From Catellatospora paridis (GTDB taxonomy: Bacteria; Actinomycetota; Actinomycetes; Mycobacteriales; Micromonosporaceae), in assembly GCF_009720365.1 (NCBI RefSeq), contig NZ_ML769317.1, positions 198,313 through 262,312 of the forward strand: 64,000 nucleotides of DNA. The letters are read 5' to 3'. Shown here piece by piece: positions 1 through 13,967 of the stretch. The notes below the pieces were generated by a model. That model was not told the DNA's origin, searched no databases, and was given only the letters and a program-made list of their open reading frames with translations. A program made the position numbers and the translations under genes. How positions within the stretch are numbered: position 1 is the stretch's first letter; every line of letters begins with the position of its first letter.

Positions 1-1
1 G

Positions 2-400
2 GACGTGTGCCGCCTGCTGACCGTGCACCAGATCACCAACGGCGGCCTCGGCCGGGCCGACGACGACGAGACCGTCGGCACCTACTTCGCCTACACCCAC
101 CGGCTGGTCCGGGAGGCCGCGGCCCGCGCCGGGCTGGCCCCCGCCGAGCTGGACTGGGTCGTCACCCAGAACATGCACGACAAGGCGTGGCAGATCCTCG
201 CCCGGCTGCTGGAGCTCGACCACGCCCGGGTCTGGGCCCCGACCCTGGCCGACGTCGGGCACGTCATCTCGGCCGACGCCGTGGTCAACCTGTCGGCGCT
301 GCTCGACTCGGGGCAGGTACGGCCAGGGCAGCGGATCGCGGTGCCGGTGGCCGGTTTCGGGCTCAACTGGCAGTGCGCGGTGCTGGAGGTTGCCCGATGA
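2..400 (+). CDS. KAS III-like acyltransferase, C-terminal part (5' end outside window)
   Basis: This is the last 132 codons of a beta-ketoacyl-ACP synthase III-like thiolase-fold enzyme; the reading frame is open to the left window edge, so the N-terminal half with the active-site cysteine is missing. The visible part shows the family's second half: an amphipathic region, the segment DWVVTQNMHDKAW where FabH has its conserved PHQAN, and GHVISADAVVNL where FabH has GNxSAAS. Thus the canonical His and Asn of the Cys-His-Asn triad are not in their usual places (T and H there instead), which suggests acyl transfer rather than ordinary decarboxylative condensation; this is inference. It overlaps the next gene by 4 bp (ATGA) and is the first visible member of a seven-gene operon. 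Confidence 0.8.
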   Translation, partial: DVCRLLTVHQITNGGLGRADDDETVGTYFAYTHRLVREAAARAGLAPAELDWVVTQNMHDKAWQILARLLELDHARVWAPTLADVGHVISADAVVNLSALLDSGQVRPGQRIAVPVAGFGLNWQCAVLEVAR

Positions 401-1278
401 GCGCCCTGGCGACCGCCCTGGCGCAGGTGTCGCAGACCACGGACCGGCTCAGCCGGCTGTCGGTGCGGGCGCACCAGAACCCGTACACCCTGGTCGACTG
501 GCCATCCGCGGTGGACCCGGAGCGGGACTGGTTCAGCACCCCGGAGTACGTGAGCCTGCACGGCACGGCCGTGTGGGCGGGCCTGGACGACAGCGCCCGC
601 CGCCGGGTCGCCTTCCACGAGGCCGCAGGCTTCTACAGCCTCAACATCCACGGGGAGAAGACGCTGATCCAGGGCCTGGCGGCACGGCTCTACCGCAGCG
701 ACCTGGCCGGTTCGGCGGGCTACCTGCACCATTTCCTGGACGAGGAGAACAAGCACAGCGTCTACTTCGGCGGCTTCTGCACCCGGTACGCGCGGGTCCA
801 CCGCAGCCGTCAGGCGCCGTGGCGCACCGACCGGCCGCGTGACGTCGACGACTTCCTGTTCTTCGCCAAGACGCTGATATTCGAGGAGATCGTGGACCAC
901 TACAACCGGGTCCAGGCCCGCGACGCGCGGCTGCACCCGCTGGCCCGTTTCATCAACGACAACCACCACCGCGAGGAGGCCCGGCACCTGGTGTTCGGCC
1001 GCCGCCTCGTGACGGAGCTGTGGCAGGCGGCGGACTGGGATCAGCCGACCGCCGCCGAGATCCGCGACGACCTCGCCCGGTTCGTGACCGCCACCTGGCG
1101 CGAGTACTACCACCCTGACGTGTACGCCGACGCCGGGCTCGGCGACCCGTGGGAGCTGGCAGAGGCGGCCTGGTCCGCGCCCGACCAGCGCACCCACCGG
1201 CGCCAGGTGTCGGCCGACTGCCTGCGGTTCCTGGCGGTGGCGGGCATCCTGACCGAGGAGCCGGCCGATGCGTTCTGA
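397..1278 (+). CDS. AurF-like non-haem diiron oxygenase
   Basis: The 293-residue product resembles the p-aminobenzoate N-oxygenase AurF family, ferritin-like four-helix diiron enzymes that oxidise amines to hydroxylamines, nitroso or nitro groups. The metal-binding pattern can be read directly: Glu87, Glu117-x2-His120 (in DEENKH), Glu163/164 (FEEIVDHY), and His190-x3-Glu194-x2-His197 (NHHREEARH). The length is normal for the family. The ATG overlaps the stop of the KAS III-like gene (ATGA), and the next gene starts inside its 3' end, so it is translationally coupled on both sides. Next to a carrier protein and an amino acid:carrier ligase, the likely substrate is an amino acid or derived acyl chain held on the carrier. 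N-oxygenation is the family default, but C-H oxidation cannot be excluded. Confidence 0.85.
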   Translation: MSALATALAQVSQTTDRLSRLSVRAHQNPYTLVDWPSAVDPERDWFSTPEYVSLHGTAVWAGLDDSARRRVAFHEAAGFYSLNIHGEKTLIQGLAARLYRSDLAGSAGYLHHFLDEENKHSVYFGGFCTRYARVHRSRQAPWRTDRPRDVDDFLFFAKTLIFEEIVDHYNRVQARDARLHPLARFINDNHHREEARHLVFGRRLVTELWQAADWDQPTAAEIRDDLARFVTATWREYYHPDVYADAGLGDPWELAEAAWSAPDQRTHRRQVSADCLRFLAVAGILTEEPADAF

Positions 1279-1513
1279 GGCCGAGATCCGCGAACAGCTG
1301 CGAACGTTCGTACGGCACCACGCCGGGGGAGTCGACATCACCGACGACACGGAGCTGTTCACGCTGCGGGTGCTGCGTTCGGTACACCTGCCCGAGCTGA
1401 TCATCCTGCTCGAACGGCTGCGCGGCGCACCCATCGACGTGGAGCAGCTGCGCATCGGCGACTTCGACGGCATCGACGCCATGATGGCCCGCTTCGGGGC
1501 GGTGCAGCCGTGA
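1268..1513 (+). CDS. Stand-alone acyl/aminoacyl carrier protein
   Basis: This 81-residue acidic helical protein has the size and layout of a discrete phosphopantetheinyl carrier protein. The DDTELF segment at residues 26-31 leads to VLRSVHLPELI, where Ser38 is the expected phosphopantetheine attachment site. The usual Asp-Ser-Leu is Arg-Ser-Val here. Many discrete carriers that work with aminoacyl ligases also lack the Asp before the serine, so this need not mean inactivity. It overlaps the oxygenase gene by 11 bp and the ligase gene by 4 bp. Its tight coupling to the downstream synthetase-like gene indicates that the two act as a pair. Confidence 0.8.
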   Translation: MRSEAEIREQLRTFVRHHAGGVDITDDTELFTLRVLRSVHLPELIILLERLRGAPIDVEQLRIGDFDGIDAMMARFGAVQP

Positions 1514-2391
1514 CCGGGCCGGCCGACCTGGCCCGGATCGGGCTGCGCTGGGACCCCAGCGGCCAGGCCGGGCTGACCGGGCCGCTGCTGGCGCTCGCCA
1601 ACGACTGCGACCGCGCCTTCCAGACCATCGCGAGCCGGTGGCGTTCACGCGAGGAGGCGTACCCGGCGACGCTGCCCGCCTCGTCCCTGCACGGGCACCT
1701 GCGGTCGTTCCCGCACCAGGTCACGTTCGCGACGACACTCGACCCCGCCGACGCCAACCTGGGCGAGTTCACCGACGGGCCGGTCGTGGACAGGACCGGG
1801 GCGGTCGCGTTGACCCGCACGGCACCGGTCACCGCAGTGCTCACCCCAGCGGCCTGCCACCACGTCTACCACGCCCACCAAGGGGAGCAATTGCCGACAG
1901 CCGTCCACGTGACCACCCGCAACACCTGCTTCCGGCGGGAGTCGAGCTACGAGCCGCTGCGCCGCCAGTGGACCTTCGCCATGAGGGAGATCGTGTGCCT
2001 GGGCACGGCTGAGGAGACCACATCGTTCCTGGCGCAGGCCCGCGCCGCGATCGACTACTTCACCCTGCTGATCGACCTGCCGACGGACTGGACACCGGCG
2101 ACCGACCCGTTCTTCCGCCCCGAACGCCACCCCGGCCACCTCCTGCAGCGCATCCAGCCGGTCAAGCACGAGGCGATCTACGGCGGCTCACTCGCCCTCG
2201 GCTCGGCCAACCTCCACCACGACCACTTCGGGTCCGCGTACTCCATCACCCGCGCCGGCACCCCCGCCACCACCGCCTGCATCGCGTTCGGCCTCGAACG
2301 CTGGCTGTACGCGCTCGTCGACCGCCACGGCCCGGACCCCGACAGCTGGCCGGACCTGCTCGCCGCGGCCCGACAGGTGGCAACCCGATGA
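1510..2391 (+). CDS. Amino acid:[carrier protein] ligase, class II aaRS-like
   Basis: The 293-residue protein resembles the truncated seryl-tRNA-synthetase homologues typified by Bradyrhizobium Bll0957, which adenylate a small amino acid and load it on a carrier protein instead of tRNA. Class II motif 2 is visible as CFRRE (residues 140-144) followed by FAMREIV (157-162), and motif 3 as FGLERW (260-265). Candidate zinc ligands of the atypical SerRS type are Cys116, Glu160 and Cys257. The tRNA-binding N-terminal arm is absent, and 293 residues matches the carrier-protein ligases rather than true SerRS. GTG start overlapping the carrier-protein stop (GTGA). Glycine or alanine would be typical substrates for this family; the specificity here is not readable from sequence. 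Confidence 0.85.
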   Translation: MTGPADLARIGLRWDPSGQAGLTGPLLALANDCDRAFQTIASRWRSREEAYPATLPASSLHGHLRSFPHQVTFATTLDPADANLGEFTDGPVVDRTGAVALTRTAPVTAVLTPAACHHVYHAHQGEQLPTAVHVTTRNTCFRRESSYEPLRRQWTFAMREIVCLGTAEETTSFLAQARAAIDYFTLLIDLPTDWTPATDPFFRPERHPGHLLQRIQPVKHEAIYGGSLALGSANLHHDHFGSAYSITRAGTPATTACIAFGLERWLYALVDRHGPDPDSWPDLLAAARQVATR

Positions 2392-3431
2392 CCACATTGA
2401 TCACCGGAGCGGACGGCTACCTCGGCCGGCGGATCACCGCCGCGCTGCGCGGCCAGGACCTGATCCTGGCAGTGCGCTGCGCCGACCAGACCGAACTCGA
2501 CCGCAAACGGGCCCGGCTCGCCCGCGTCGCAGACGTCCCCGTCGTGCCGGTCGACCTGCGCGACGCCGACCCGTTCGCCCACGTGGACCCCCGGCCCATC
2601 ACACGGATCATCCACGCCGCCGCGCTCATCCGCTTCGACGTCAGCCGCGACACCGCCGAGCAGGTCAACGTCGCCGGCACGGCACGCGTACGCGACTTCG
2701 CGCAACGCTGCGACCGGCTCGAACAGCTGATGCTGCTGTCCACGCTCTACAGCGCCGGCCGGCGTCGCGGCGAGGTCCACGAGACCCGCCACGACGACAC
2801 CGGCTTCGTCAACCACTACGAATGGTCGAAATGGGCCGCCGAGGAGTGCCTACTCGACCCGCCGGGACTGCCGGTGACGGTGGCACGGCTGCCGACGCTG
2901 ATCGCCGACGACGCTGGCGGCGCCGTCGCCCAGTACAACGCGTTCCACCACACGATGCGGCTCTACCACGCCGGGCTGCTGACCCTGCTGCCCGGCGACC
3001 CGGCGACACCACTGAGCCTGGCCACCGCCGAATTCACCGTCGATGCCGTGACGGCACTGCTCGCCGCACCGCCGGGCATCTACCAGATCTGCTCCGGCCC
3101 GGTGACCCTCGGCACCGCGATCGACACCGCCTTCACCGTCTTCGATCAGGATCCGAGCTTCCGACGGCGGATGCTGCCCCGCCCGATCCCCTGCGACCGG
3201 GCCGGCTTCCGCGACCTGGCACACGCCGCCCGGGCGCTGCGCGGCGGCCCGCTACAGCCCGCGCTCGCTTCCGTCGCGCCCTTCGCCGAGCAGCTCTACC
3301 TGCCCAAACACTTCCGCACCGACCGCCTGCGCGCGGCGTGGCCCGGATATCGGACGCACGACGCCACGGCGCTGATCGAGGCGGCGTGCACCGACCTGAT
3401 CAAGAGGAGTTTCCATGTCACCGCGCATTGA
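2388..3431 (+). CDS. Thioester-reductase-like extended SDR
   Basis: The 347-residue NAD(P)-dependent extended short-chain dehydrogenase resembles the reductase domains that release carrier-bound acyl thioesters as aldehydes. Evidence: nucleotide-binding TGADGYLG at residues 6-13 (GxxGxxG), a central Ser118 in LLSTLYSAG, and the catalytic YxxxK as Tyr144 and Lys148 in HYEWSK. It overlaps the ligase gene by 4 bp (ATGA) and the following gene by 17 bp. In this operon it is the natural candidate for reductive release of the product from the carrier protein. An alternative role as an ordinary sugar- or steroid-type epimerase/dehydrogenase is possible, but the neighbourhood argues for the thioester role. 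Confidence 0.75.
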   Translation: MTTLITGADGYLGRRITAALRGQDLILAVRCADQTELDRKRARLARVADVPVVPVDLRDADPFAHVDPRPITRIIHAAALIRFDVSRDTAEQVNVAGTARVRDFAQRCDRLEQLMLLSTLYSAGRRRGEVHETRHDDTGFVNHYEWSKWAAEECLLDPPGLPVTVARLPTLIADDAGGAVAQYNAFHHTMRLYHAGLLTLLPGDPATPLSLATAEFTVDAVTALLAAPPGIYQICSGPVTLGTAIDTAFTVFDQDPSFRRRMLPRPIPCDRAGFRDLAHAARALRGGPLQPALASVAPFAEQLYLPKHFRTDRLRAAWPGYRTHDATALIEAACTDLIKRSFHVTAH

Positions 3432-4557
3432 GACACCACAGCACCCGCAGGCGGCACAGCAGCCGGCCCTGGTGCGGCGGACCGAACTGCCCGGCGCCGT
3501 CGACGACCGGCTGTACTTCGCCCAGGTCCGCGAGGACCCGGAGCTGGAGATCGCCGCGTTCGCCGCACGGTGGGACGGCCCCATCGCCGTGGTCAGCTCC
3601 GCCGGCTGTACCGCGCTGTCACTGCTCGCCGCCGGTGCGACCGAGGTCGTCGGCATCGACGTCAACCGCACCCAGAACCACCTCGTCGAACTGAAAGCGG
3701 CCGCGGTCGCGCAACTGGCACCCGGCTCGGCCCTCGGACTGCTCGGCGGCGTCGCCATGGCACCGGCCGCACGGCGGCACGCCTACGACCAGATCCGGGG
3801 CCGACTCACCACCGGGGCACGTCACTACTGGGACGCCCACCTACAAGCGATCGATGCTGGAGTCTTGCAGGCGGGGGTCACCGAGCGACTGATGCGCCTC
3901 ATCGCCCGCTCCCTGCGCGTGGTCCACCCCCGCCGCATCGAGACGCTGCTCGCCCCGCGGACACTCGACCAGCAACGGGAGTTCTACCACCGGGACTGGG
4001 ACACCTTCGGCTGGCGGCTGCTGTTCGCCGTGCTGTGCAACCGGCTGGTGCTGCGGCGCACCTACGACGAACGGTTCTTCGCCCACGTCGAGAACCCCAG
4101 CTACGCCCGCCACTTCCGCCAGGTCGCCGAGCACACACTCACCGACCTGGAGATCGGCGGCAACTACTTCCTGCACCACCTGCTGACCGGTGCCTACCCC
4201 GCAGCAAGCCGCCCGCCCTACCTGGACGCGCAGGTGCCCGTCGACCGCCTGCACCTGGTCGACGGTGCCTTCACCGACTACCTGCGTACGCTGCCCGACC
4301 GCAGCATGGCCGGGTTCGCCCTGTCCAACATCTGCGAATGGCTGACCGCCGACCAGATCGACGAGCTGTTCGCCGAGATCGTCCGCACGGCCCGGCCGGG
4401 CGCCCGGCTGGTCTTCCGCAACTTCGTCGGCTGGACCGAGGTGCCGCCACGCTGGCGCGACGCCGTCCGCGAGGACCGGGCGCGCGGCGAGGAGCTGATG
4501 CGCACCGACCGCAGCCTGTGCCAGCGGCGTTTCGCGCTCTGCGAGGTGACGCCGTGA
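3415..4557 (+). CDS. BtaA-like (DUF3419) 3-amino-3-carboxypropyl transferase
   Basis: The 380-residue protein matches the layout of the DUF3419/BtaA family, whose founding member moves the 3-amino-3-carboxypropyl group of S-adenosylmethionine onto diacylglycerol in betaine-lipid synthesis. Seen here: the N-terminal YFAQVREDPELE (34-45), an SAM-binding VVSSAGCTALSLLAAG (59-74), and the acidic loop GIDVNRTQNHLVELK (80-94), which is nearly diagnostic. The C-terminal half has FALSNICEWL. The start is ATG behind a GAGGAG ribosome site inside the SDR gene. No BtaB-type N-methyltransferase is adjacent and the gene sits within a carrier-protein operon, so a small-molecule acceptor is more likely than a lipid; this is inference. 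Confidence 0.8.
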   Translation: MSPRIETPQHPQAAQQPALVRRTELPGAVDDRLYFAQVREDPELEIAAFAARWDGPIAVVSSAGCTALSLLAAGATEVVGIDVNRTQNHLVELKAAAVAQLAPGSALGLLGGVAMAPAARRHAYDQIRGRLTTGARHYWDAHLQAIDAGVLQAGVTERLMRLIARSLRVVHPRRIETLLAPRTLDQQREFYHRDWDTFGWRLLFAVLCNRLVLRRTYDERFFAHVENPSYARHFRQVAEHTLTDLEIGGNYFLHHLLTGAYPAASRPPYLDAQVPVDRLHLVDGAFTDYLRTLPDRSMAGFALSNICEWLTADQIDELFAEIVRTARPGARLVFRNFVGWTEVPPRWRDAVREDRARGEELMRTDRSLCQRRFALCEVTP

Positions 4558-5594
4558 GAGTCCGCGACGCCCGCCCCGAGGACAACGCGGCCCTGGTCGA
4601 CCTGGCGGCCCGCTGCGCGATGGAAGGCGACCTGGCGCTGTGCATCGACCGGCGGCCCGACTTCTTCGCCCTCAACCGGATCGGCGGCGAGGCCTGGCGG
4701 GTCGGGGTCGTCGACGGCGACGACGGCCCGATCGCCTGCGTCGCGGTCGCCCGCCGGCCCTCCTACATCGACGGCCGCCCGGCCCAGCTCGGCTATGTCG
4801 GCGACCTCAAGGTGCACCCGGCGCACCGGCGACGCGGCGCCGCCCGCGTCCTGGCGCAATGGGCGCACGACGCCGCCCGCGAGCTGGCCGGCCCGAACGC
4901 ACCGCTGATCGGCACCGTCCTGGCCGGCAACGACGCCGTCGACATGCTGCGCCGGCAGGTCGAACCCGGCGTACGCCGACAGGCCACCATCAGATCGCAC
5001 AGCATCGACCTGCTGACACGCCGCCGCATCCCGCCCGGCGACCTCACCGTGACTGTGGCCACCTCCGCAGACGAGCCCGAGATGGTCGAACTGTGGCACC
5101 GCGTGGCCGCGTCCCGCCAGTACGCCCCGGTCTGCGAGTCGTTCCCGCTCGACCGACCGGACCTGGACTACCTGGTGGCCCGGCGGCCTGGCGGCGAGCT
5201 CGCGGGGTTCGTCGGCCTGTGGAACCAGCACGACATCAAGCAGATGCGCGTCACCGGCTACTCGACCCGGCTGGCGGCCGCCCGGCTCGCCTTCAACGTC
5301 GCGGCCCCGCTGCTGCGGGTGCCACGCCTACCGCGCGCGGGCGAGGAACTGAGCTACCGCACGGTGGTCAACCCGTGCGTGCCCGACCCGCAGACGCTGC
5401 GCACCCTGATCCGGCACGCCTGCAACCGGCTGCACGGGCAGCACTCGTTCCTCACCATCGGTCTGGACGTCCGCGACCCGCTGGCTGCCGCGCTGACCGG
5501 GCTACGGGCGCAGCCCACCGACGTCGACCTGCTCGTACTGGGCGGACCGGACGGCCAGGCCACGCCGGTGCATTTCGAGATCGCCACGGTGTAG
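4554..5594 (+). CDS. Tandem GNAT-type N-acyltransferase
   Basis: The 346-residue product starts at a GTG that overlaps the previous stop (GTGA). The N-terminal half is a GNAT fold with the acetyl-CoA pyrophosphate loop visible in VGDLKVHPAHRRRGAARVL. The second half (from about residue 165) looks like a degenerate second GNAT domain, with strands around LAGFVGLWNQ and FLTIGLDV but no clear RxxGxG/A loop. It is the last gene of the operon; the following gene is convergent. A self-protection acetylation or a tailoring acylation of the amine-bearing product would fit. No signal peptide or membrane segment is seen. Confidence 0.7.
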   Translation: MRVRDARPEDNAALVDLAARCAMEGDLALCIDRRPDFFALNRIGGEAWRVGVVDGDDGPIACVAVARRPSYIDGRPAQLGYVGDLKVHPAHRRRGAARVLAQWAHDAARELAGPNAPLIGTVLAGNDAVDMLRRQVEPGVRRQATIRSHSIDLLTRRRIPPGDLTVTVATSADEPEMVELWHRVAASRQYAPVCESFPLDRPDLDYLVARRPGGELAGFVGLWNQHDIKQMRVTGYSTRLAAARLAFNVAAPLLRVPRLPRAGEELSYRTVVNPCVPDPQTLRTLIRHACNRLHGQHSFLTIGLDVRDPLAAALTGLRAQPTDVDLLVLGGPDGQATPVHFEIATV

Positions 5595-5697
5595 ACCCGA
5601 GTGTCCAGCTGGTGCCTGGTGCCGGCGAGTATCGCGCTATCGACGCCGCCACCAACGCCGACATCGCTGCAGGGTCACGCTGCGCGTCGCGGTGGCA

Positions 5698-6474
5698 TCA
5701 CTGCGGGCTCGGGCGCAGCTCGGCCCGCAACTGCAGGAACCGGAACACTCCCGGCCGACCGACGACCGTCTGATATCTGTCGACAACCGCATCCACGAAC
5801 GCGGGAACGTCCGCGGCGGGCAGGCGCGACGCCCAGTCGGAGAATCCGACCGTGCACCACTGCGCGAACTGCTCGCGCGAGCCGAAGTCCCATTCGCGGT
5901 CGACGACCGACTGCTGGGTGACTTTCAGGCCCGCGCTGCCCGCGATCGCAGGCAGGTCGTCGGGCTCGATGTGCACGTACGGTGGCGCGAAGCCGGCGAA
6001 CGCGGACGCCCAGCGCGAATCGTGGGCCACCTCCATCGCGACGCGTTCGACGCTCGGGCGGGAACCGCGGCAGACGAACTGCACGAGCGCTCGGCCGTCG
6101 GTTTTGAGCGCCGCAGCGATGTTCCGGTACGCGGTCTGCTGGTCGGCCACCCAGTGCAGCGCGTTGAACGAGACCACGAGGTCGAACTCCGGCCCGAACG
6201 TCATGGTGGTGACGTCGCCGACCTGGAACGACACGTTCGCCTGCTGGTCATCGGCAGCGCGAGCCGTCTCGATCATCCGTGGCGACGGATCGACGCCGAG
6301 GACGGATCCATCCGGCACCCGCGACGCGATCAGCCGGGTCACGTACCCGTCGCCGCAGCCCACGTCGAGCACGTGTTCGGTGCCCGCGACCTCGACGGAT
6401 TCGAGGCACGTCGTCGCCATCGCACGCTGCAGTCCGCTGATGTGGGCGTAACCGGCGCCGTCCCAGTCGGCCAT
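5698..6474 (-). CDS. Class I SAM-dependent methyltransferase
   Basis: The 258-residue protein has the classic Rossmann methyltransferase motifs: motif I VLDVGCGDGY (residues about 34-44), an acidic loop LGVDPSPRMI, and the post-motif DLVVSFNALHWV typical of the trans-aconitate methyltransferase (Tam)-like subgroup. The length fits that subgroup. It is convergent with the biosynthetic operon and separated from it by about 100 bp, so it is probably not co-transcribed with it. The substrate is unknown. I see no clear terminator in the short convergent gap. Confidence 0.8.
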   Translation of the reverse strand: MADWDGAGYAHISGLQRAMATTCLESVEVAGTEHVLDVGCGDGYVTRLIASRVPDGSVLGVDPSPRMIETARAADDQQANVSFQVGDVTTMTFGPEFDLVVSFNALHWVADQQTAYRNIAAALKTDGRALVQFVCRGSRPSVERVAMEVAHDSRWASAFAGFAPPYVHIEPDDLPAIAGSAGLKVTQQSVVDREWDFGSREQFAQWCTVGFSDWASRLPAADVPAFVDAVVDRYQTVVGRPGVFRFLQLRAELRPSPQ

Positions 6475-6728: not shown

Positions 6729-7913
6729 ATGGCTGATGCCGACATTCACGAGATAGCGCCGAACCTCTGCGTCATCGAGGGCCACCACCCGCACCGTATG
6801 TGGGAGGACCCGGATATCCCGACCATCGCGGTCTACCGCGGCGTGTCGACTCTCTACCTGCTCGACACCGGCGTCGGCCCGCAGCAGCGAAGCGCGATCC
6901 TCGCCGTCGCGCAGAAGTACGGGCCGGCCGACGAAGTGCTCATCCTCTCCAGCCACGGGCACATCGACCACCTCGGCAACAACGACGTCGTCGACGACAT
7001 CCCCGCGACCACCAAGCGCAACTACTTCCCGCGGGCCGGACGACCCGGACTCGACGCCAAGACGTTCTTTCGAGTGATGTACGAGCGCGGCGCACCGTAC
7101 TTCGACTACGTCGACGGCCTGGACCTCGACGCGGACACCGTCAGCTCACTGCTGCGCGGCGTCGGCGCCGACCGGCGATCGACGCCTGACAACGTCGCCA
7201 GCCTGGGCGCCGCCGTCGAGGCCGCCGGTGTCGTCCCGGCGATCTCGAAGCTGCTGCCGGGGCTCGTCGTCGACATTCTGATGAGCACCTACCCGCCCGT
7301 GCACATCCGTGCCGAATCGATCCACGACTACGAGGAACTCGGACCCGCACGCGACATCACGATCGGCCAGACGACGTGGAGCGGATGGGGCTTCGGCGGC
7401 GGCGAGGTCCACGTCTTCCAGACCGCGGGCCATTCGGCGGGAGGCTGCGTCTTCTACGTCCCGGAGCATCGTTTCCTGATGTTCGCCGACGAGACGACGG
7501 GCATCCCCATCTGGGCGGACACCGACCCGGCCAACACGATCCGCACGATGCGCCGCGCACTGCAGATGATGGACTCCGGCCACGTCAGCACCGTGTGCGC
7601 GGGCCATCGCCCCATGCTGCCCCTGTCGAACGACGAAGCACGCGCCACGCTCACCGGGATCATCGCCGGGGCAGAGGAGTTCACGGCGACGGTGAACGAC
7701 GGCATCGCGAAACACCCCGATGGCGTATGCATCGACGAGCTCTACGCCGAACTGGTCTCGGCTGCCGCACCGCAGTCGATGATCGCGCTGGTGAAGCAAC
7801 TCCAGTTCCCGGTGTTCGCGACCTTCCTCAAGCTGACGCTGGCCAACGAGTGCCTCCTGCAGGGCTACCAGCAGGGCCGCGACGACAAAGGCCGCATCAC
7901 GTTCCGCGCCTGA
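6729..7913 (+). CDS. Metallo-beta-lactamase-fold hydrolase
   Basis: The 394-residue protein begins at an ATG preceded by a strong GGAGGAG ribosome-binding site; an in-frame upstream extension lacks one. The MBL zinc motif SHGHIDH is at residues 75-81. Further metal-binding candidates are the histidine in TAGHSAGG, the aspartate in MFADETTG and the histidine in CAGHRP. The C-terminal region is helical and differs from the alkylsulfatase at 25785. There is no signal peptide, so it is cytoplasmic. The upstream gap carries the divergent methyltransferase promoter region. The substrate cannot be read from sequence. Confidence 0.75.
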   Translation: MADADIHEIAPNLCVIEGHHPHRMWEDPDIPTIAVYRGVSTLYLLDTGVGPQQRSAILAVAQKYGPADEVLILSSHGHIDHLGNNDVVDDIPATTKRNYFPRAGRPGLDAKTFFRVMYERGAPYFDYVDGLDLDADTVSSLLRGVGADRRSTPDNVASLGAAVEAAGVVPAISKLLPGLVVDILMSTYPPVHIRAESIHDYEELGPARDITIGQTTWSGWGFGGGEVHVFQTAGHSAGGCVFYVPEHRFLMFADETTGIPIWADTDPANTIRTMRRALQMMDSGHVSTVCAGHRPMLPLSNDEARATLTGIIAGAEEFTATVNDGIAKHPDGVCIDELYAELVSAAAPQSMIALVKQLQFPVFATFLKLTLANECLLQGYQQGRDDKGRITFRA

Positions 7914-8185
7914 TCCGGCACCGGCGCGTAGCCGATGCGGCCTGACCCACCCAGACGCGGATCGCGAACGGCATTCGTGCGAGCGAGAACTGGTCCCATC
8001 GAGGCAGCAGGCATCGCCAACATCTCGACGCTGCGCATGGTCACGGCCGAGGTTGCTGGTCGGCGCTCAGTCGTGCCGGACTGCCGATCGGATCGCGGCA
8101 AATCCGGACGTCGTCGTGGACGCTGCCGGCGTGAATGTATGGCAGACGGGCGACTGTCGGTTCGAGGTCGGGAGCGCCTGCGACG

Positions 8186-8887
8186 TCAGTGTGCGTCCAG
8201 GACGAAGAAGAGGAAGCAGATGAAGGCCGTTCTGTCGCCGAGGTCGGGTGGGAGGAGTTCTCGGGGGGTGTCGGGCGAGAAGGGAGGCTCGCTGATGACC
8301 GCGATGCGGAAGCCTGCCTCGGTGAACGCGTCGGTCATGGCGTGCAAGGGCCGGTGCCAGAAGGTCAGCACCGCGCGCTGACCGTCGGCGAAGGTGTACT
8401 CGTCCGAGTACTGCGTGACGGAGAAGTAATCGGCACTGGGGTCGCTCGACTCGAGGATGCGGGGGTGGTTGACCGACAGAAGCAGACGGCCACCGGGCTT
8501 CAGCACGCGCCGCAGCTCGGCCAGCGGTGCCTTCCAGTCCTGCAGGTAGTGCAGTACAAGCGAGACAACGACATCATCGAACGCGCCGTCGGCAAACGGC
8601 AGTGGCAGGCTGAGGTCGGCAACCTGCAGGTCGGCGTCCTCACCCAGCCTCTTCCGTGCCAGCTCGACCATGACCGGGCTGGAGTCGAAACCGGCCACGA
8701 CGGCACCCCTCGCGCGGAGGGCTTCGGACAGAGGGCCGGAGCCACACCCGGCATCGAGCACCCGACGACCGCGGACATCGCCGGCGAGCGCGAGCATCGC
8801 CGGTCGCTCGTAGTGAGCGGTGAACAGGCCTGACTCGTTTGCCCTCGAGTAGCTCTCGGCGAAGCCGTCGTAGTGGTCGGCTCTCAT
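8186..8887 (-). CDS. Class I SAM-dependent methyltransferase
   Basis: The 233-residue methyltransferase has motif I VLDAGCGSGPLSE, the acidic loop VAGFDSSPVM, motif II region FDDVVVSLVLHYLQDW and motif III ELRRVLKPGGRLLLSVNHP, a ubiE/COQ5-like arrangement. The start chosen is the ATG at 8887, preceded by GAGGA with good spacing and beginning MRADHYDGFAESY; a longer frame upstream lacks a ribosome site and is low-complexity. It is divergent from the large regulator at 9106, and the 218-bp gap between them should hold both promoters. The substrate is unknown. Confidence 0.8.
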   Translation of the reverse strand: MRADHYDGFAESYSRANESGLFTAHYERPAMLALAGDVRGRRVLDAGCGSGPLSEALRARGAVVAGFDSSPVMVELARKRLGEDADLQVADLSLPLPFADGAFDDVVVSLVLHYLQDWKAPLAELRRVLKPGGRLLLSVNHPRILESSDPSADYFSVTQYSDEYTFADGQRAVLTFWHRPLHAMTDAFTEAGFRIAVISEPPFSPDTPRELLPPDLGDRTAFICFLFFVLDAH

Positions 8888-9105
8888 CAAGTCCTCGCTT
8901 CTTTCGCGCTCCCGGGCGATCTGATCAAGGGTGGCACAGCTCCCGGGCCCGTGGTGACCCCTGACGGGCGCGCGGCCACTCGCAACAACATTCATGCCGC
9001 TTGGGACGGATCGCTGTCACTATGGTCGCTGATCGCAGCCTCGAGGCATAACGTCCGTAGCTGTCCCGAAGCGACACGGCCGAGCAGGACGCTGGAGGTG
9101 CTCAC

Positions 9106-11886
9106 ATGCAGGTGAGGCTTCTCGGGCCCGTGGACGTCGCGGCAGCGGGCGTGGCCACGGAGGTGCCGGGCCTGCGCCGCAAGGCCGTGCTCGCGGTCCT
9201 CGGCCTGCACCCTGGACAGATCGTGAGCAGCGACCGCCTCATCGACGTGGTCTGGGGTGGCAACGCTCCGGTGACCGCGCTCAACACCCTGCAGCGCCAC
9301 ATCTCCTACCTGCGTGACGTGCTCGGCAGCAAGACCTCGATCGTGGCCAGGCCACCGGGCTACCTACTGAACCTGCCAGGTGAATCCACCGATGCCGAAG
9401 CCGCGCAGCGGCTCATCCGGCTGGGGACGCAGTCATCGGATCCGGCCCAGGCGCTCGACCATCTCCGTGGCGCTCTCGCCCTGTGGCGCGGCCGGCCGCT
9501 GGCCGATGTCGCCGAGCTTCGCTGGCTGGGGGAGCAGGCTGAACGCCTCGATCACCTGGAGTACGAGGCAACCCGGGCGCTCGTCGACGTCCGCCTCACC
9601 CTGGGCGAACACGCCCAGCTGATACCCGAGCTCGAGCAGCTGATCTCGGCCCGGCCCTTTGACGAGGATCTCCAGCGGCAGCTGATGCTCGCGCTGTACC
9701 GCTGCGGCCGGCAGGCCGAGTCGCTGGCGTGTTATCAGCGACTCAAACGGGCGCTGGCCGACGAGCTGGGCATCGACCCGGGGCTTGCGCTGCGGGAACT
9801 GGAAGCCGCGATCCTGCGCCAGGACGCCTCGCTGCAGGCGCTGGCGCCCGCCGTCACCGTGGCGGCTGTCCCGGCTGCCGCGTCGGCTCCCGCGCAGTTG
9901 CCACTGGCGATCCCGGCGTTCGCCGCACGCCAGCGGGAGGTGGCCCGCCTGGACGCGATGCTCGCCGGTCGGGGCTCGGCGTCGGTGCTCATCGCCACCG
10001 TGTCCGGCACCGCGGGCGTGGGCAAGACGACCCTGGCCGTGCACTGGGCGCACCAGGTGCGGCAAGCCTTCCCCGACGGACAGCTCTACGTCGACCTGCG
10101 GGGCTTCGACCGTGACGGCGCGCTCGTGGACCCCGCCGTGGCCTTGCGCGGATTCCTCGACGCCTTCGGTGTCGCTGTGCAGCGGATCCCCGCGGGCCTC
10201 GACGCCCAGGCGGCCCTCTACCGCAGCGTCCTCAGCGGGAAGCGGGTGCTGGTCGTGCTGGACAACGCCCGCGACGTGGCGCAGGTCCGGCCCCTGCTGC
10301 CCGGCTCGCCCGGTTGCGCGGTGCTCGTCACGAGCCGAAATCAGCTGACCGCACTCGTGACGGTCGAAGGCGCCGTGCCGATGACACTGGGCCTGCTGAC
10401 CGATGACGAAGCACGCGATCTGCTCACCCGGCGGTTGGGCGAAGACCGGGTCGCCGCCGAGGCCGGTGCTGTCCAGGAGGTGATAACGCAGTGCGCCCGG
10501 CTGCCGCTGGCACTGGCGATCGCCGCGGCGAGCTGTGTCACCCGCCCGGACGTGCCGGTCGCGGGAGTGGCAGCGCAGCTCCGCGACTCGGCGGGGACGC
10601 TGGACGCCCTCAACAGCGCTGATGCGGATACCGATATCAGGTCGGTGTTCTCCTGGTCTTATCTTGCTCTCAGCCCGGACGCAGCCCGGCTGTTCAGGTT
10701 GCTGGGCCTGCATCCAGGACCGGATGTGGACGAGTCGGCGGCTGCCTGCCTGGCCGGCCTTTCCGTCGCCGGGGTCCGGCCGCTGCTCGCCGAGCTGATC
10801 CAGGCGAATCTCCTGCTGCAGCCCAATCCGCGGCGCTACGGCTTCCATGACCTTCTCTGGACCTACGCCGCCGGTTGTGCGCAGGAAGACGAGCCGGAGC
10901 AGCGGGCCCAAGCGATGTGCCGGCTGCTTGACCACTACCTGCATACCGCCTTGTCGGCCGCCATGCTCATCCATCCGCACCGGGATCCGATCGCCGTTGC
11001 TGAGCTCAGCCCCGGCACGATGGTGCGGCAACTCGCCGACAAGGACGACGCGACGGCCTGGTTCACCGCTGAGCGAGCGGTGCTGGGTGCCATGATCAGG
11101 CGGGCGACCGCCGGCGGCTTCGATCGTCATGTCTGGCAACTGGCCTGGGCACTGCAGGATCACCTGGATCGCGGCGGTCATTGGGAGGAGCATGCGGCCA
11201 ACCTCGAGGCCGCCATCGAGGCCGCCGGACGCCAAGGCGACCAGGCCGCGCAGGCACATGCGCACCAGAGCCGTTCGACTGCCTGCGCCCGCATGGGCCG
11301 TTACGACGAGGCGCACACCCACCTCAGCGATGCCCTCAAGCTCTACGAGGCCCTCGACGATCGCGGTGGCCAGGCCACCGTGCAGTACCAGCTCGGCTGG
11401 GTGGCCAACCGCCAGCGCCGTCACGAACAGGCGAGTCATCATGCGCGCCAGGCGTTGCGGCTCTACCGGGCCACGGGAAAGCCGATGATGGCCGCACGCG
11501 CGCTGAATTCGCTGGGCTGGACATACGCGTTGCGCGGCGACTACCGCCGGGCCCGGCCGCTGTGTGAGCGTGCGCTGGCGCAGATGCGCGAGCTGGGCGA
11601 TCTGACGTTCCAGGCAGGGACCTCGGACAGCCTCGGCTACATCTACCACCATCTGGGCGATTACCAGTTGGCCGCAGGTCACTACCGGCGGGCGCTCGAC
11701 CTCTTCCGCGACCTCAACGACCGCTATTACGAAGCCGACACGCTCAGCCATCTTGGTGACACCCACCGGGCGGCCGGCGACCTTCGGGCCGCCCGGATCG
11801 CGTGGCAGCAGGCGTACGAGATCTTCAGCCGGCTAGCGCACGCGGACGCGGTCGGTGTGCGGGCGAAACTCGACGGCGCACACTGA
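9106..11886 (+). CDS. AfsR-like transcriptional activator (SARP, NB-ARC, TPR)
   Basis: The 926-residue STAND regulator reads in the standard AfsR order. It has an OmpR-type winged helix DNA-binding domain (about 1-92) and a bacterial transcriptional activation domain (about 97-245). An NB-ARC ATPase follows with Walker A GTAGVGKTT near 302 and a Walker B-like VLVVLDNARD, then a winged-helix/ARC2 segment containing FSWSYLAL. A TPR array fills about 700-920 (repeats such as ALNSLGWTYALRGDYRRA and TSDSLGYIYHHLGDYQLA). The family activates transcription by binding 11-bp-spaced direct repeats near the -35 region. Two such repeat blocks lie just downstream, before the two secreted-protein genes, making those candidate targets. 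Its last 54 bp overlap the end of the convergent gene at 11833. Confidence 0.9.
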   Translation: MQVRLLGPVDVAAAGVATEVPGLRRKAVLAVLGLHPGQIVSSDRLIDVVWGGNAPVTALNTLQRHISYLRDVLGSKTSIVARPPGYLLNLPGESTDAEAAQRLIRLGTQSSDPAQALDHLRGALALWRGRPLADVAELRWLGEQAERLDHLEYEATRALVDVRLTLGEHAQLIPELEQLISARPFDEDLQRQLMLALYRCGRQAESLACYQRLKRALADELGIDPGLALRELEAAILRQDASLQALAPAVTVAAVPAAASAPAQLPLAIPAFAARQREVARLDAMLAGRGSASVLIATVSGTAGVGKTTLAVHWAHQVRQAFPDGQLYVDLRGFDRDGALVDPAVALRGFLDAFGVAVQRIPAGLDAQAALYRSVLSGKRVLVVLDNARDVAQVRPLLPGSPGCAVLVTSRNQLTALVTVEGAVPMTLGLLTDDEARDLLTRRLGEDRVAAEAGAVQEVITQCARLPLALAIAAASCVTRPDVPVAGVAAQLRDSAGTLDALNSADADTDIRSVFSWSYLALSPDAARLFRLLGLHPGPDVDESAAACLAGLSVAGVRPLLAELIQANLLLQPNPRRYGFHDLLWTYAAGCAQEDEPEQRAQAMCRLLDHYLHTALSAAMLIHPHRDPIAVAELSPGTMVRQLADKDDATAWFTAERAVLGAMIRRATAGGFDRHVWQLAWALQDHLDRGGHWEEHAANLEAAIEAAGRQGDQAAQAHAHQSRSTACARMGRYDEAHTHLSDALKLYEALDDRGGQATVQYQLGWVANRQRRHEQASHHARQALRLYRATGKPMMAARALNSLGWTYALRGDYRRARPLCERALAQMRELGDLTFQAGTSDSLGYIYHHLGDYQLAAGHYRRALDLFRDLNDRYYEADTLSHLGDTHRAAGDLRAARIAWQQAYEIFSRLAHADAVGVRAKLDGAH

Positions 11887-12282
11887 CATCGGTTGTTCCG
11901 ACCACCAGTCCAAAGGGTTGGTGCAGTCGGCGGTGAGCTCGCCCGCGAGCAGCTCGCACACATAGATCCCGGAGGCGAGCTCGCCGAAGAGGCCGCCCGC
12001 GTATTCGCACTCGTCCCGTAGCGGCGGGTTCTCCAGTCGGCTGGCGTAGCCGCATCTGTCGTTTTGGCAGAGGATCACGGTGTCGGTGAAGTCGCATGAG
12101 TACGAGGTTCGCTGTTCGGAGTAGGCGCCGCCGAGGGTCTTGCAGAGGACCTGCAACGTCTCGGGGCTGACGGTCGGCGGGGGATCGCCTGCGGTGGCTG
12201 GGCCCGCCAGGCCGGCCACGAAGCCGGCGATCGTCAGCGCCGAGACGGTGAGAAGCCGGAGCAACTTGCTGACACGGTGCAC
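11833..12282 (-). CDS. Small secreted cysteine-rich protein
   Basis: The 149-residue product starts at a GTG preceded by AAGGAGA. A Sec signal peptide is evident: a basic start, hydrophobic LLTVSALTIAGFVAGLAG, and a likely cleavage after ATA in PATAGD. The mature part is rich in cysteine (VLCKTLGG, YSCDFTD, ILCQNDRCGY, DECEYAGG, YVCELL, ADCTNP, SVCAVE), which suggests disulfide bonding outside the cell. I do not recognise the family. It shares the PATAGD cleavage region and a KTLGG motif with the next gene upstream (12395-12832), and both genes carry matching CTGA direct repeats in front of them. It overlaps the convergent regulator by 54 bp. Confidence 0.6.
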   Translation of the reverse strand: MHRVSKLLRLLTVSALTIAGFVAGLAGPATAGDPPPTVSPETLQVLCKTLGGAYSEQRTSYSCDFTDTVILCQNDRCGYASRLENPPLRDECEYAGGLFGELASGIYVCELLAGELTADCTNPLDWWSEQPMSVCAVEFRPHTDRVRVR

Positions 12283-12337
12283 GGTGAGGTTCTCCTTCGG
12301 TGAAATCCAGAGCGTGCGTACACCATGGCGGCCCGGT

Positions 12338-12354
12338 CTGAAACGGTGCTGAAA
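12338..12354 (-). promoter_or_regulatory. CTGAAA direct repeat, 11-bp spacing (SARP-like box)
   Basis: Two CTGAAA copies begin at 12338 and 12349, exactly 11 bp apart (TTTCAG on the coding strand). They lie about 56 bp upstream of the GTG of the secreted protein gene ending at 11833. The same element occurs in front of its neighbour, so a shared SARP-type activator is inferred. Confidence 0.5.
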
Positions 12355-12383
12355 CGGGGCTCCGCGTCGAGCGCGGAGCCCCG
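12355..12383. terminator. Perfect GC hairpin
   Basis: A 12-bp perfect inverted repeat (CGGGGCTCCGCG and its complement) with a 5-base loop lies 12 bp beyond the stop of the minus-strand gene 12395-12832 and upstream of the next minus-strand gene. It is probably the terminator that separates the two secreted-protein genes. Confidence 0.65.
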
Positions 12384-12394
12384 GTGGGGGGTGG

Positions 12395-12832
12395 TCAGGC
12401 CCGCAGGATGAGCGGCCGGCAGATGTAGATGACGTACGGCGGCCAGTAGACGACGATGCATTCCCACACGACGACGTCGCCGACCCCGATCTGGCGGGCG
12501 ACCTGGTCGACAGTTGTGGCGGGCTCCGGGTGGTCGTAGTCACCCAGCCGCTTGACTCCGTCGGCGCCCTTGCCGGCCGCCACCGCCGCGATCTGCTCGG
12601 TGGTGAGCTCCCGCTCCGAGTTCACCAGCGTCACCTGCGACGGCGCGGGCAGCCGGCCGCCGAGCGTCTTCTCCGCCTCGGCCTGGATCTGCGCCAGCGC
12701 GGTTTCCGGCTTGAGATCGCGAACGGTCACGGTCTGCATTCCGCGGTCACCGGCTGTGGCCGGGCCGGCCACCACTGCGACCGCACTGACCACGGCCATG
12801 GTCAGCAGCGTCAGCCTTCTGCTCAGTTTCAT
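12395..12832 (-). CDS. Small secreted protein with C-terminal hydrophobic tail
   Basis: The 145-residue product has an ATG preceded by GAGGAAAGG. The signal peptide is clear (MKLSRRLTLLTMAVVSAVAVVAG, cleavage near PATAGD). The mature protein is first helical and charged (PETALAQIQAEAEKTLGG), then has a TTEQIAAVAAGKGADGVKRLG helix, and ends in an aromatic/hydrophobic segment, VVVWECIVVYWPPYVIYI. I do not recognise the family. It shares leader style and a KTLGG motif with the gene at 11833, suggesting a functional pair. It is preceded by three CTGA direct repeats at 11-bp intervals. Confidence 0.6.
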   Translation of the reverse strand: MKLSRRLTLLTMAVVSAVAVVAGPATAGDRGMQTVTVRDLKPETALAQIQAEAEKTLGGRLPAPSQVTLVNSERELTTEQIAAVAAGKGADGVKRLGDYDHPEPATTVDQVARQIGVGDVVVWECIVVYWPPYVIYICRPLILRA

Positions 12833-12900
12833 CGCATTGCCTTTCCTCGAACCGGTAGGTGGGTGCTGGAGCACCCGTGGCCACACCGTGACATCGAGGC

Positions 12901-12928
12901 CTGACGTGGGTCTGAAGCGCGGCTGAAA
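12901..12928 (-). promoter_or_regulatory. Triple CTGA direct repeat, 11-bp period (SARP-like box)
   Basis: CTGA begins at 12901, 12912 and 12923, a perfect 11-bp period (TCAG repeats on the coding strand), about 69 bp upstream of the ATG at 12832. It matches the repeat block at 12338-12354 before the neighbouring secreted-protein gene. Regularly spaced direct repeats are typical of AfsR/SARP binding sites; the AfsR-like gene at 9106 is the nearest candidate regulator. Confidence 0.5.
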
Positions 12929-13067
12929 GGCCAAACTGCCCGCTTGGTACTTCCTCTCGCCGAGCACGAAGCGGGTGCCCAGGCGTACGCGCCGTTGCAG
13001 GACGGGTAGGTGTCCAGGCGTGGCGCAGGCCCGACCGGCGGGTGTGTTCCATGAGTGCCGAAAACAG

Positions 13068-13700: not shown

Positions 13701-13967
13701 GGCCGAATGCTACGGGTCGCGGGCTCCGCCATGGGGACGCCGGATCACGGCTGTGGGCAGTACTCTGCCGAGCTGAGCCCGACGTCGCGCAAACCGGTAT
13801 CGCTGCGCTGATTCCTGAATGTCATGTGCCGAAGCGGCATTTGCCTCTGGTGCGCTCGAACCGCAATGTGCAACGATCCCTTCGCATCGCGGTAGGGCGT
13901 TTCAACGTCACCGGACCCACACCCCGTGGTCCCACGCTGCTATCGCCTCATTCAGGAGGACACCCCC

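Follow-up and report, generated by a model that had tools for sequence, protein, structure and literature searches.

The window analyzed here, a stretch of 64,000 nucleotides from the 8.97 Mb genome of the soil actinomycete Catellatospora paridis (Micromonosporaceae; contig NZ_ML769317.1, positions 198,313 to 262,312), opens on an operon of seven plus-strand genes which, according to reading-frame analysis, overlap successively by 4, 11, 4, 4, 17 and 4 bp (Table 1). They encode a protein related to ketosynthase III (KSIII-like, hereafter KS), an AurF-type ferritin-like diiron N-oxygenase (FDO), a discrete carrier protein, a ligase resembling class II aminoacyl-tRNA synthetases (aaRS), a short-chain dehydrogenase/reductase (SDR) of the thioester-reductase type, a DUF3419/BtaA-like transferase and a GNAT protein. 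The KS gene is cut by the window start, only its last ~133 codons lying inside; it begins at contig position 197726 (or 197768), i.e. at about -586 (or -544) in window numbering. The nearest relatives of the window are Catellatospora species. We propose that the operon encodes a discrete, non-modular carrier pathway in which an amino acid is loaded, N-oxidized, reductively released and capped with an S-adenosylmethionine (SAM)-derived group, a five-step model that, taken as a whole, we moderately favor.

Table 1. Genes of the seven-gene operon, with coordinates in the window
Gene product	Position	Strand	Basis
KSIII-like protein, putative acyltransferase (3' part of gene)	1..400	+	KAS III Pfam domains; whole gene contig 197726-198712
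AurF-type ferritin-like diiron N-oxygenase (FDO), 293 aa	397..1278	+	AurF domain, fold, ligands
Discrete carrier protein, 81 aa	1268..1513	+	Ser38 in RSV motif, not DSL
Class II aaRS-like amino acid:[carrier protein] ligase, 293 aa	1510..2391	+	Bll0957 match; C116, E160, C257 invariant
Discrete thioester-reductase (R-domain-like) SDR, 347 aa	2388..3431	+	Best PDB matches are R domains; Y144-x3-K148
DUF3419/BtaA-like 3-amino-3-carboxypropyl transferase, 380 aa	3415..4557	+	PF11899 3.3e-49
GNAT acyltransferase, two GNAT-like halves (second by model only), 346 aa	4554..5594	+	Pfam and AlphaFold2 model

A previous sequence-only reading of this DNA had singled out a set of seven genes with overlaps of 4-17 bp; the reading frames agree, and the recurrence of this order in 10 further genomes takes the arrangement beyond chance. 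A ligase search found a match in 43 of 250 genomes of the family, and wide neighborhoods were fetched for 20 of these 43, with gene starts placed by our own codon-bias caller. Ten of the 20 neighborhoods hold the complete seven-gene order (L036-L045; loci carry L numbers throughout). When the flanks of the 11 seven-gene loci were compared, two flanking gene families were common to L036 and the window, L043, L044 and L045 had 5 to 11 in common and all remaining pairs 0-2; the operon thus behaves as a single unit. Loci L046-L049 keep the KS-AurF-carrier-ligase-SDR part, with DUF3419 and GNAT replaced by other genes, while in L051-L055 the ligase comes with a carrier, joined in L051-L053 by an AurF-type gene and in L055 by two remote KS relatives (27-29%).

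For a wider view, the AurF alignment was compared with a named genome collection, which gave 331 pattern-matching stretches; 305 were confirmed and the best 80 kept, as loci bounded by 9 kb flanks or contig ends. Each open reading frame (ORF) in these loci was labeled with whichever of our own 13 profiles matched best, so that fused proteins show a single label there and both in separate profile runs; the profiles for a second small diiron protein (FDO2), ICMT, MMPL, acyl-activating enzyme and nitronate monooxygenase were each built on 2 to 6 sequences. Some genomes occur in both the named-collection and the family-genome loci, and the counts of the two sets are not additive. Among the best 80 of the 305, the KS gene is present in 58 loci and all five core genes in 55. 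By NCBI names, the 55 core loci belong to Actinomycetota (33), Pseudomonadota (9), Melainabacteria (4), Acidobacteriota (3), Bdellovibrionota (2) and, with one each, Omnitrophota, Nitrospirota, Myxococcota and Fidelibacterota, nine phylum names in all, which are not firm labels since about 30 of the 55 titles read as metagenome-assembled genomes (MAGs). Catalytic residues are nearly invariant.

Of the 58 KS loci, 43 contain both FDO2 and a second carrier, neither of which is found there without the other; 45 have an acyl-activating enzyme and 11 an MMPL transporter, and phosphopantetheinyl transferase domains are present in the few related loci checked by Pfam. The window operon and nine named loci (L056-L062, L065, L066) are without the second diiron protein and carrier, and may be a reduced form. 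The FDO2 of L046 (12043-12633) is ferritin-like, E21, E50xxH53, E100 and E131xxH134 being invariant in 10 of 10 sequences. Against the PDB, FDO2 gave weak matches (best E 0.0018), the top ones mostly bacterioferritins and designed diiron proteins, and a search of the source genome, run without a positive control, returned no FDO2 match.

The ligase matches Bll0957 with an E-value of 7.6e-23 over residues 51-282 of its 293, which span the class II aaRS catalytic core; in Pfam it has only a sub-cut-off tRNA-synt_2b match (3.6e-4). Its residues C116, E160 and C257 are kept in 61 of the 61 loci with a match and were mapped by hand, via a tagged PDB chain, to C131, E176 and C279, which we take to be the zinc ligands of Bll0957. 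Since these residues are kept, the ligase probably recognizes a free amine when it loads its substrate. Bll0957-type ligases prefer glycine or alanine. The carrier, which has no Pfam or NCBIfam match, keeps Ser38 in 21/21 aligned sequences and in 74/74 loci with a match. Bll0957 similarity, zinc-site residues and carrier Ser38 conservation together bear out the earlier proposal of an aaRS-like ligase beside its own discrete carrier. We conclude that the ligase very probably loads an amino acid onto the operon carrier, with glycine as the moderately favored substrate. As a variation on this step, 16 loci in the range L109-L135 have an AurF-type gene near an AMP-binding (adenylation-type) enzyme replacing the aaRS-like ligase, most of them with a carrier; we describe these enzymes as alternative loaders.

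The AurF domain of the second gene product is matched at 1.3e-38, and its fold matches list N-oxygenases first, followed by R2 and R2-like oxidases. Residues E117, H120, E163, H190, E194 and H197 are present in 80/80 loci and E87 in 79/80. Compared by motif spacing with the pattern given in PMC12154687, all seven metal ligands are present, including the extra histidine that this source describes as characteristic of FDO N-oxygenases. The products ascribed there to such enzymes are nitroso, nitro, nitronate and azoxy groups and, with Dob3, a diazo group. Domain, fold and ligand set therefore agree with the AurF-like diiron oxygenase named at first sight. Two described pathways offer precedents for oxidation on a carrier: HamC oxidizes valine tethered on the HamD non-ribosomal peptide synthetase (NRPS), with a reduction en route to valdiazen (PMC11659414), and the proposed route to akazaoxime and A-76356 comprises glycine on an NRPS, a diiron oxygenase and a nitronate O-methyltransferase (PMC9967187).

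Related gene neighborhoods point in the same direction. In five of the 30 ligase loci from family genomes (L026, L027, L032-L034; Pfam for one), AurF, carrier and ligase genes adjoin a nitronate monooxygenase gene, and these five are likely glycine-nitronate denitrification cassettes; L053 belongs with these loci. He and Ryan reportedly described, in 2021, glycine-derived nitronate pathways (enteromycin carboxamide/akazaoxime) with carrier-bound glycine and diiron oxidation, leading into either an O-methyl or a denitrification branch. On plasmid pTM2 of Tistrella mobilis (L130, 8839-13254), genes for AurF, carrier, ligase, nitronate monooxygenase and O-methyltransferase stand in a row, an arrangement that would fit a cassette joining both branches. 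It is highly likely that the amino acid of the Catellatospora operon is N-oxidized while tethered; that the oxidation reaches the nitronate or nitro level is a somewhat less than even prospect.

The KS protein has the KAS III N- and C-terminal Pfam domains above cut-off. In an alignment with solved enzymes, Gln252 occupies the position of the FabH catalytic His and His283 that of the FabH Asn, on which grounds a condensing KAS III with the FabH Cys-His-Asn triad was rejected. Cys139, Gln252, His283 and Asp288 are invariant, and the C139/H283/D288 triad is found in 58/58 loci. The second-best match is ChlB3, whose His and Asp share alignment columns with His283 and Asp288. ChlB3 uses a Cys113-His296-Asp301 triad, the same pair occurs in CerJ, and CerJ Cys and His mutants are inactive (PMC9573744). 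Given this triad and the CerJ mutants, the KS most likely moves acyl groups, and we assign it, from its residues, as a probable acyltransferase. The sequence-only reading had recognized a KAS III-like enzyme and given it no role; the fold family stands, and the condensing-enzyme residues give way to a ChlB3/CerJ-type Cys-His-Asp set.

The SDR has a NAD_binding_4/thioester reductase match, and the PDB structures nearest to it are reductase (R) domains of NRPSs, polyketide synthases and carboxylic acid reductases. It has the nucleotide-binding glycines together with the catalytic Y-x3-K pair, whose Tyr and Lys recur in 55 of 56 loci, the remaining one having a gap. The structure matches and this motif uphold the assignment as thioester-reductase-like, and a reductive release by the SDR is likely.

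The DUF3419 domain of the sixth gene product (168.5 bits against a cut-off of 28.2) gives the only DUF3419 match in the source genome and confirms the BtaA-like family assignment; the profile finds no PDB match at E 0.01. Positions compared by hand show that 7 of 11 genomes of the genus contain a single DUF3419 copy, in all seven at this operon, while 1 of 14 control genomes has one. BtaA is the aminocarboxypropyl transferase of betaine lipids (PMC10491745). For the seventh protein, read earlier as a double GNAT, Pfam detects the N-terminal GNAT only, and the second half is seen by way of the AlphaFold2 model (predicted local distance difference test score 74.7), which matches N-myristoyltransferases, Eis2 and VipF. 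These three have two GNAT folds.

The last two genes alternate with another type of enzyme. Among the 58 KS loci, 17 have the BtaA-like gene, 37 an ICMT-like membrane methyltransferase (taken above 60 bits), four neither (L074, L076, L082, L085) and none both. Placed on the KS tree with the window added, the BtaA/ICMT labels change 4 times (3-5 in bootstraps), against 15 times when shuffled. The GNAT profile matches in 15 of the 17 BtaA loci, the contigs of the other two (L078, L087) ending at DUF3419, and in 0 of the 41 KS loci without BtaA; in three actinobacterial MAGs, GNAT follows DUF3419 in one ORF (L098, L100 and L107, the last at 4058-6331 on the minus strand and checked by Pfam). Most simply, methyl and aminocarboxypropyl groups would be alternative SAM-derived caps, and BtaA and GNAT an exchangeable pair. 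Since GNAT is restricted to BtaA loci, we take it to acylate the amine that only the aminocarboxypropyl group brings, and it seems likely that DUF3419 and GNAT act in that order on the same product. More tentatively, and by analogy with the O-methyl nitronate precedent, the capped atom could be a nitronate or oxime oxygen; we know of no natural product with an O-(3-amino-3-carboxypropyl) nitronate or oxime. A separate case among the four loci with neither cap is L082 of Streptomyces sp. ODS25 (6739-13051), where the KS, AurF and carrier genes adjoin a radical SAM enzyme and a carrier-condensation protein, with the ligase on the opposite strand; we describe it as a divergent use of the core.

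These elements can be arranged into five steps. The ligase would adenylate an amino acid whose alpha-amino group is free (glycine being the likeliest) and load it on the carrier (step 1), where the FDO would oxidize the tethered amine to an N-oxygenated acyl thioester at the oxime, nitro or nitronate level (step 2). The KS would shift an acyl group through its Cys in the manner of CerJ and ChlB3, and the SDR would reduce a thioester on the carrier, giving an aldehyde or alcohol (step 3). An oxygen nucleophile of the product would then be alkylated by the BtaA-like enzyme with the aminocarboxypropyl group of SAM, where most relatives would use the membrane methyltransferase (step 4), and the GNAT would acylate the amine thus introduced (step 5). 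All the reactions, the amino acid, its oxidation level, the order of steps 3 and 4, the acyl groups and the product are predicted. The loading, oxidation and release logic proposed at first is retained here, on the strength of gene families, residues and the Ham and glycine-nitronate precedents, while the KS and the cap needed correction: the transfer of an aminocarboxypropyl group from SAM stands as the predicted cap, and its alternation with a methyltransferase and its pairing with GNAT had been missed.

Several observations weigh against this model or parts of it. Specific NCBIfam models stay below cut-off: the ligase reaches 120 bits (8e-35) with the amino acid--[ACP] ligase PRK07080, whose equivalog threshold is 357, which makes for a weaker claim of identity with that subfamily; the SDR scores 57 bits with TIGR01746, short of 213; and the KS misses the KAS III cut-off. 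At E 0.01, a sequence search of the PDB with the AurF-family profile gives no chain, so function transfer for the FDO rests on Pfam, fold and ligands. KS and SDR are both thioester consumers, yet the operon has a single carrier, which clouds the assignment of their substrates. As to the cap, strongly supported branches of the KS tree force only two swaps, so few are independent; a Nocardia locus (L080) contains DUF3419 plus a remote ICMT (28 bits to our own profile; Pfam 3.7e-18); and L050, which lies outside the 58 KS loci, shows a rearranged gene set whose DUF3419 protein is short and in which no GNAT was matched.

Other chemistries were also weighed. In a Ham/Pvf-like route, valine or leucine would be loaded, oxidized to a hydroxylamine or nitroso compound and reductively released, and the resulting N-oxygenated aldehyde would be turned into a nitrone, pyrazine N-oxide or diazeniumdiolate, to be decorated by BtaA and GNAT. 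We hold this to be unlikely: the loader is of the Bll0957 type with its preference for glycine or alanine and not an NRPS, the relatives beside nitronate monooxygenase and O-methyltransferase genes point to nitronates, and Pfam matches no cupin or haem-oxygenase domain in any of the seven proteins. What the operon does share with it, in discrete form, is the sequence of loading, AurF-type oxidation and reductive release, as indicated by HamC/HamD (PMC11659414) and the R-domain matches.

Alternatively, the KS could be an unusual condensing enzyme, joining an acyl group held on Cys139 with a nitroacetyl-carrier carbanion in a Claisen reaction without decarboxylation, for which the FabH His and Asn would be unneeded. 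A nitronate is already a carbanion, and this would agree with the His-to-Gln and Asn-to-His replacements next to a retained Cys (58/58 loci) and with the acyl-activating enzyme (45/58) and second carrier (43/58) of related clusters. The window operon is without a second carrier or acyl ligase, and the triad equals that of ChlB3 and CerJ, which are termed acyltransferases even though Claisen condensation is also ascribed to ChlB3 and DpsC (PMC9573744); we consider such a role quite unlikely. Improbable as well is a multi-phylum family united by a glycine nitronate or oxime on the carrier, a non-decarboxylating Claisen reaction by the KS, thioester reduction and a cap that is either O-methyl or O-aminocarboxypropyl plus N-acyl. 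That the FDO oxidizes carbon instead of nitrogen, hydroxylating or desaturating either the tethered amino acid or an acyl chain, is suggested by the C-H oxygenation and desaturation known in its family (PMC12154687), a further point against N-oxidation, and by the R2-type oxidases next among its fold matches; with the N-oxygenase ligand set in place, we think it a poor prospect. A betaine-lipid-like operon, in which DUF3419 would work on diacylglycerol and the remaining genes tailor the lipid, has the strong PF11899 match and the known role of BtaA (PMC10491745) in its favor and was rejected as very improbable, since Pfam shows no BtaB-type methyltransferase family among the other six proteins of the operon, a GNAT, even one fused to DUF3419, is the simpler partner for the amine, and within the genus DUF3419 is confined to this operon.

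The operon is preceded by a gene for a protein of >2,200 aa and followed, on the other strand, by a methyltransferase gene (5698-6474) which, among 21 loci compared, occurs besides the window only in L036. Farther downstream, by eye, a 926-aa protein (9106-11886) resembles SARP/AfsR-type regulators and a 1008-aa protein (13926-16952) secreted subtilisin-type proteases.

In the literature searched (titles and abstract starts, with most subscription papers, MIBiG and antiSMASH outside the search), there was no description of this gene set, in line with the earlier reading, to which no characterized pathway combining these genes was known. Conservation of catalytic residues from Catellatospora to MAGs of Acidobacteria, Melainabacteria and Gammaproteobacteria suggests a generally useful small molecule rather than the curiosity of one genus. 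With one ligase, one carrier, one oxygenase and one reductase, the operon is a compact, discrete system for studying the oxidation of carrier-bound amino acids; it also offers a KSIII fold with an unusual set of active-site residues, a natural experiment in the exchange of methyl and aminocarboxypropyl caps, and a predicted role for DUF3419 beyond betaine lipids.

The ligase has the class II aaRS core, zinc-site residues and adjacent carrier of Bll0957-type enzymes; it differs from Bll0957 in being about 36 residues shorter ahead of the matched core (relative to the tagged PDB chain) and in sitting in an oxidation pathway. The KS has the Cys-His-Asp triad of ChlB3 and CerJ, with His and Asp five residues apart, but forms a family of its own in which Gln takes the place of the FabH His. 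A DUF3419 domain is shared with BtaA of betaine lipid synthesis, where the partner would be BtaB; the operon has no BtaB-like protein and its partner is a GNAT, fused to DUF3419 in three loci. The Ham, Mgo and Pvf pathways (valdiazen, fragin, pyrazine N-oxides) likewise combine a tethered amino acid, an AurF-like N-oxygenase and reductive release; in Ham, a single NRPS (HamD) loads, carries and releases, whereas the operon divides these tasks among three separate proteins, with an aaRS-like loader, and has KS, BtaA and GNAT in addition. Glycine-nitronate pathways likewise use glycine on a carrier and diiron oxidation, the nitronate then being O-methylated from SAM or denitrified. Pfam finds no nitronate O-methyltransferase or nitronate monooxygenase domain among the seven operon proteins, and we judge that the operon works like a glycine-nitronate cassette without classing it as one: it adds a putative acyltransferase of the KSIII type together with an R domain, and its predicted cap is an aminocarboxypropyl group with subsequent acylation.

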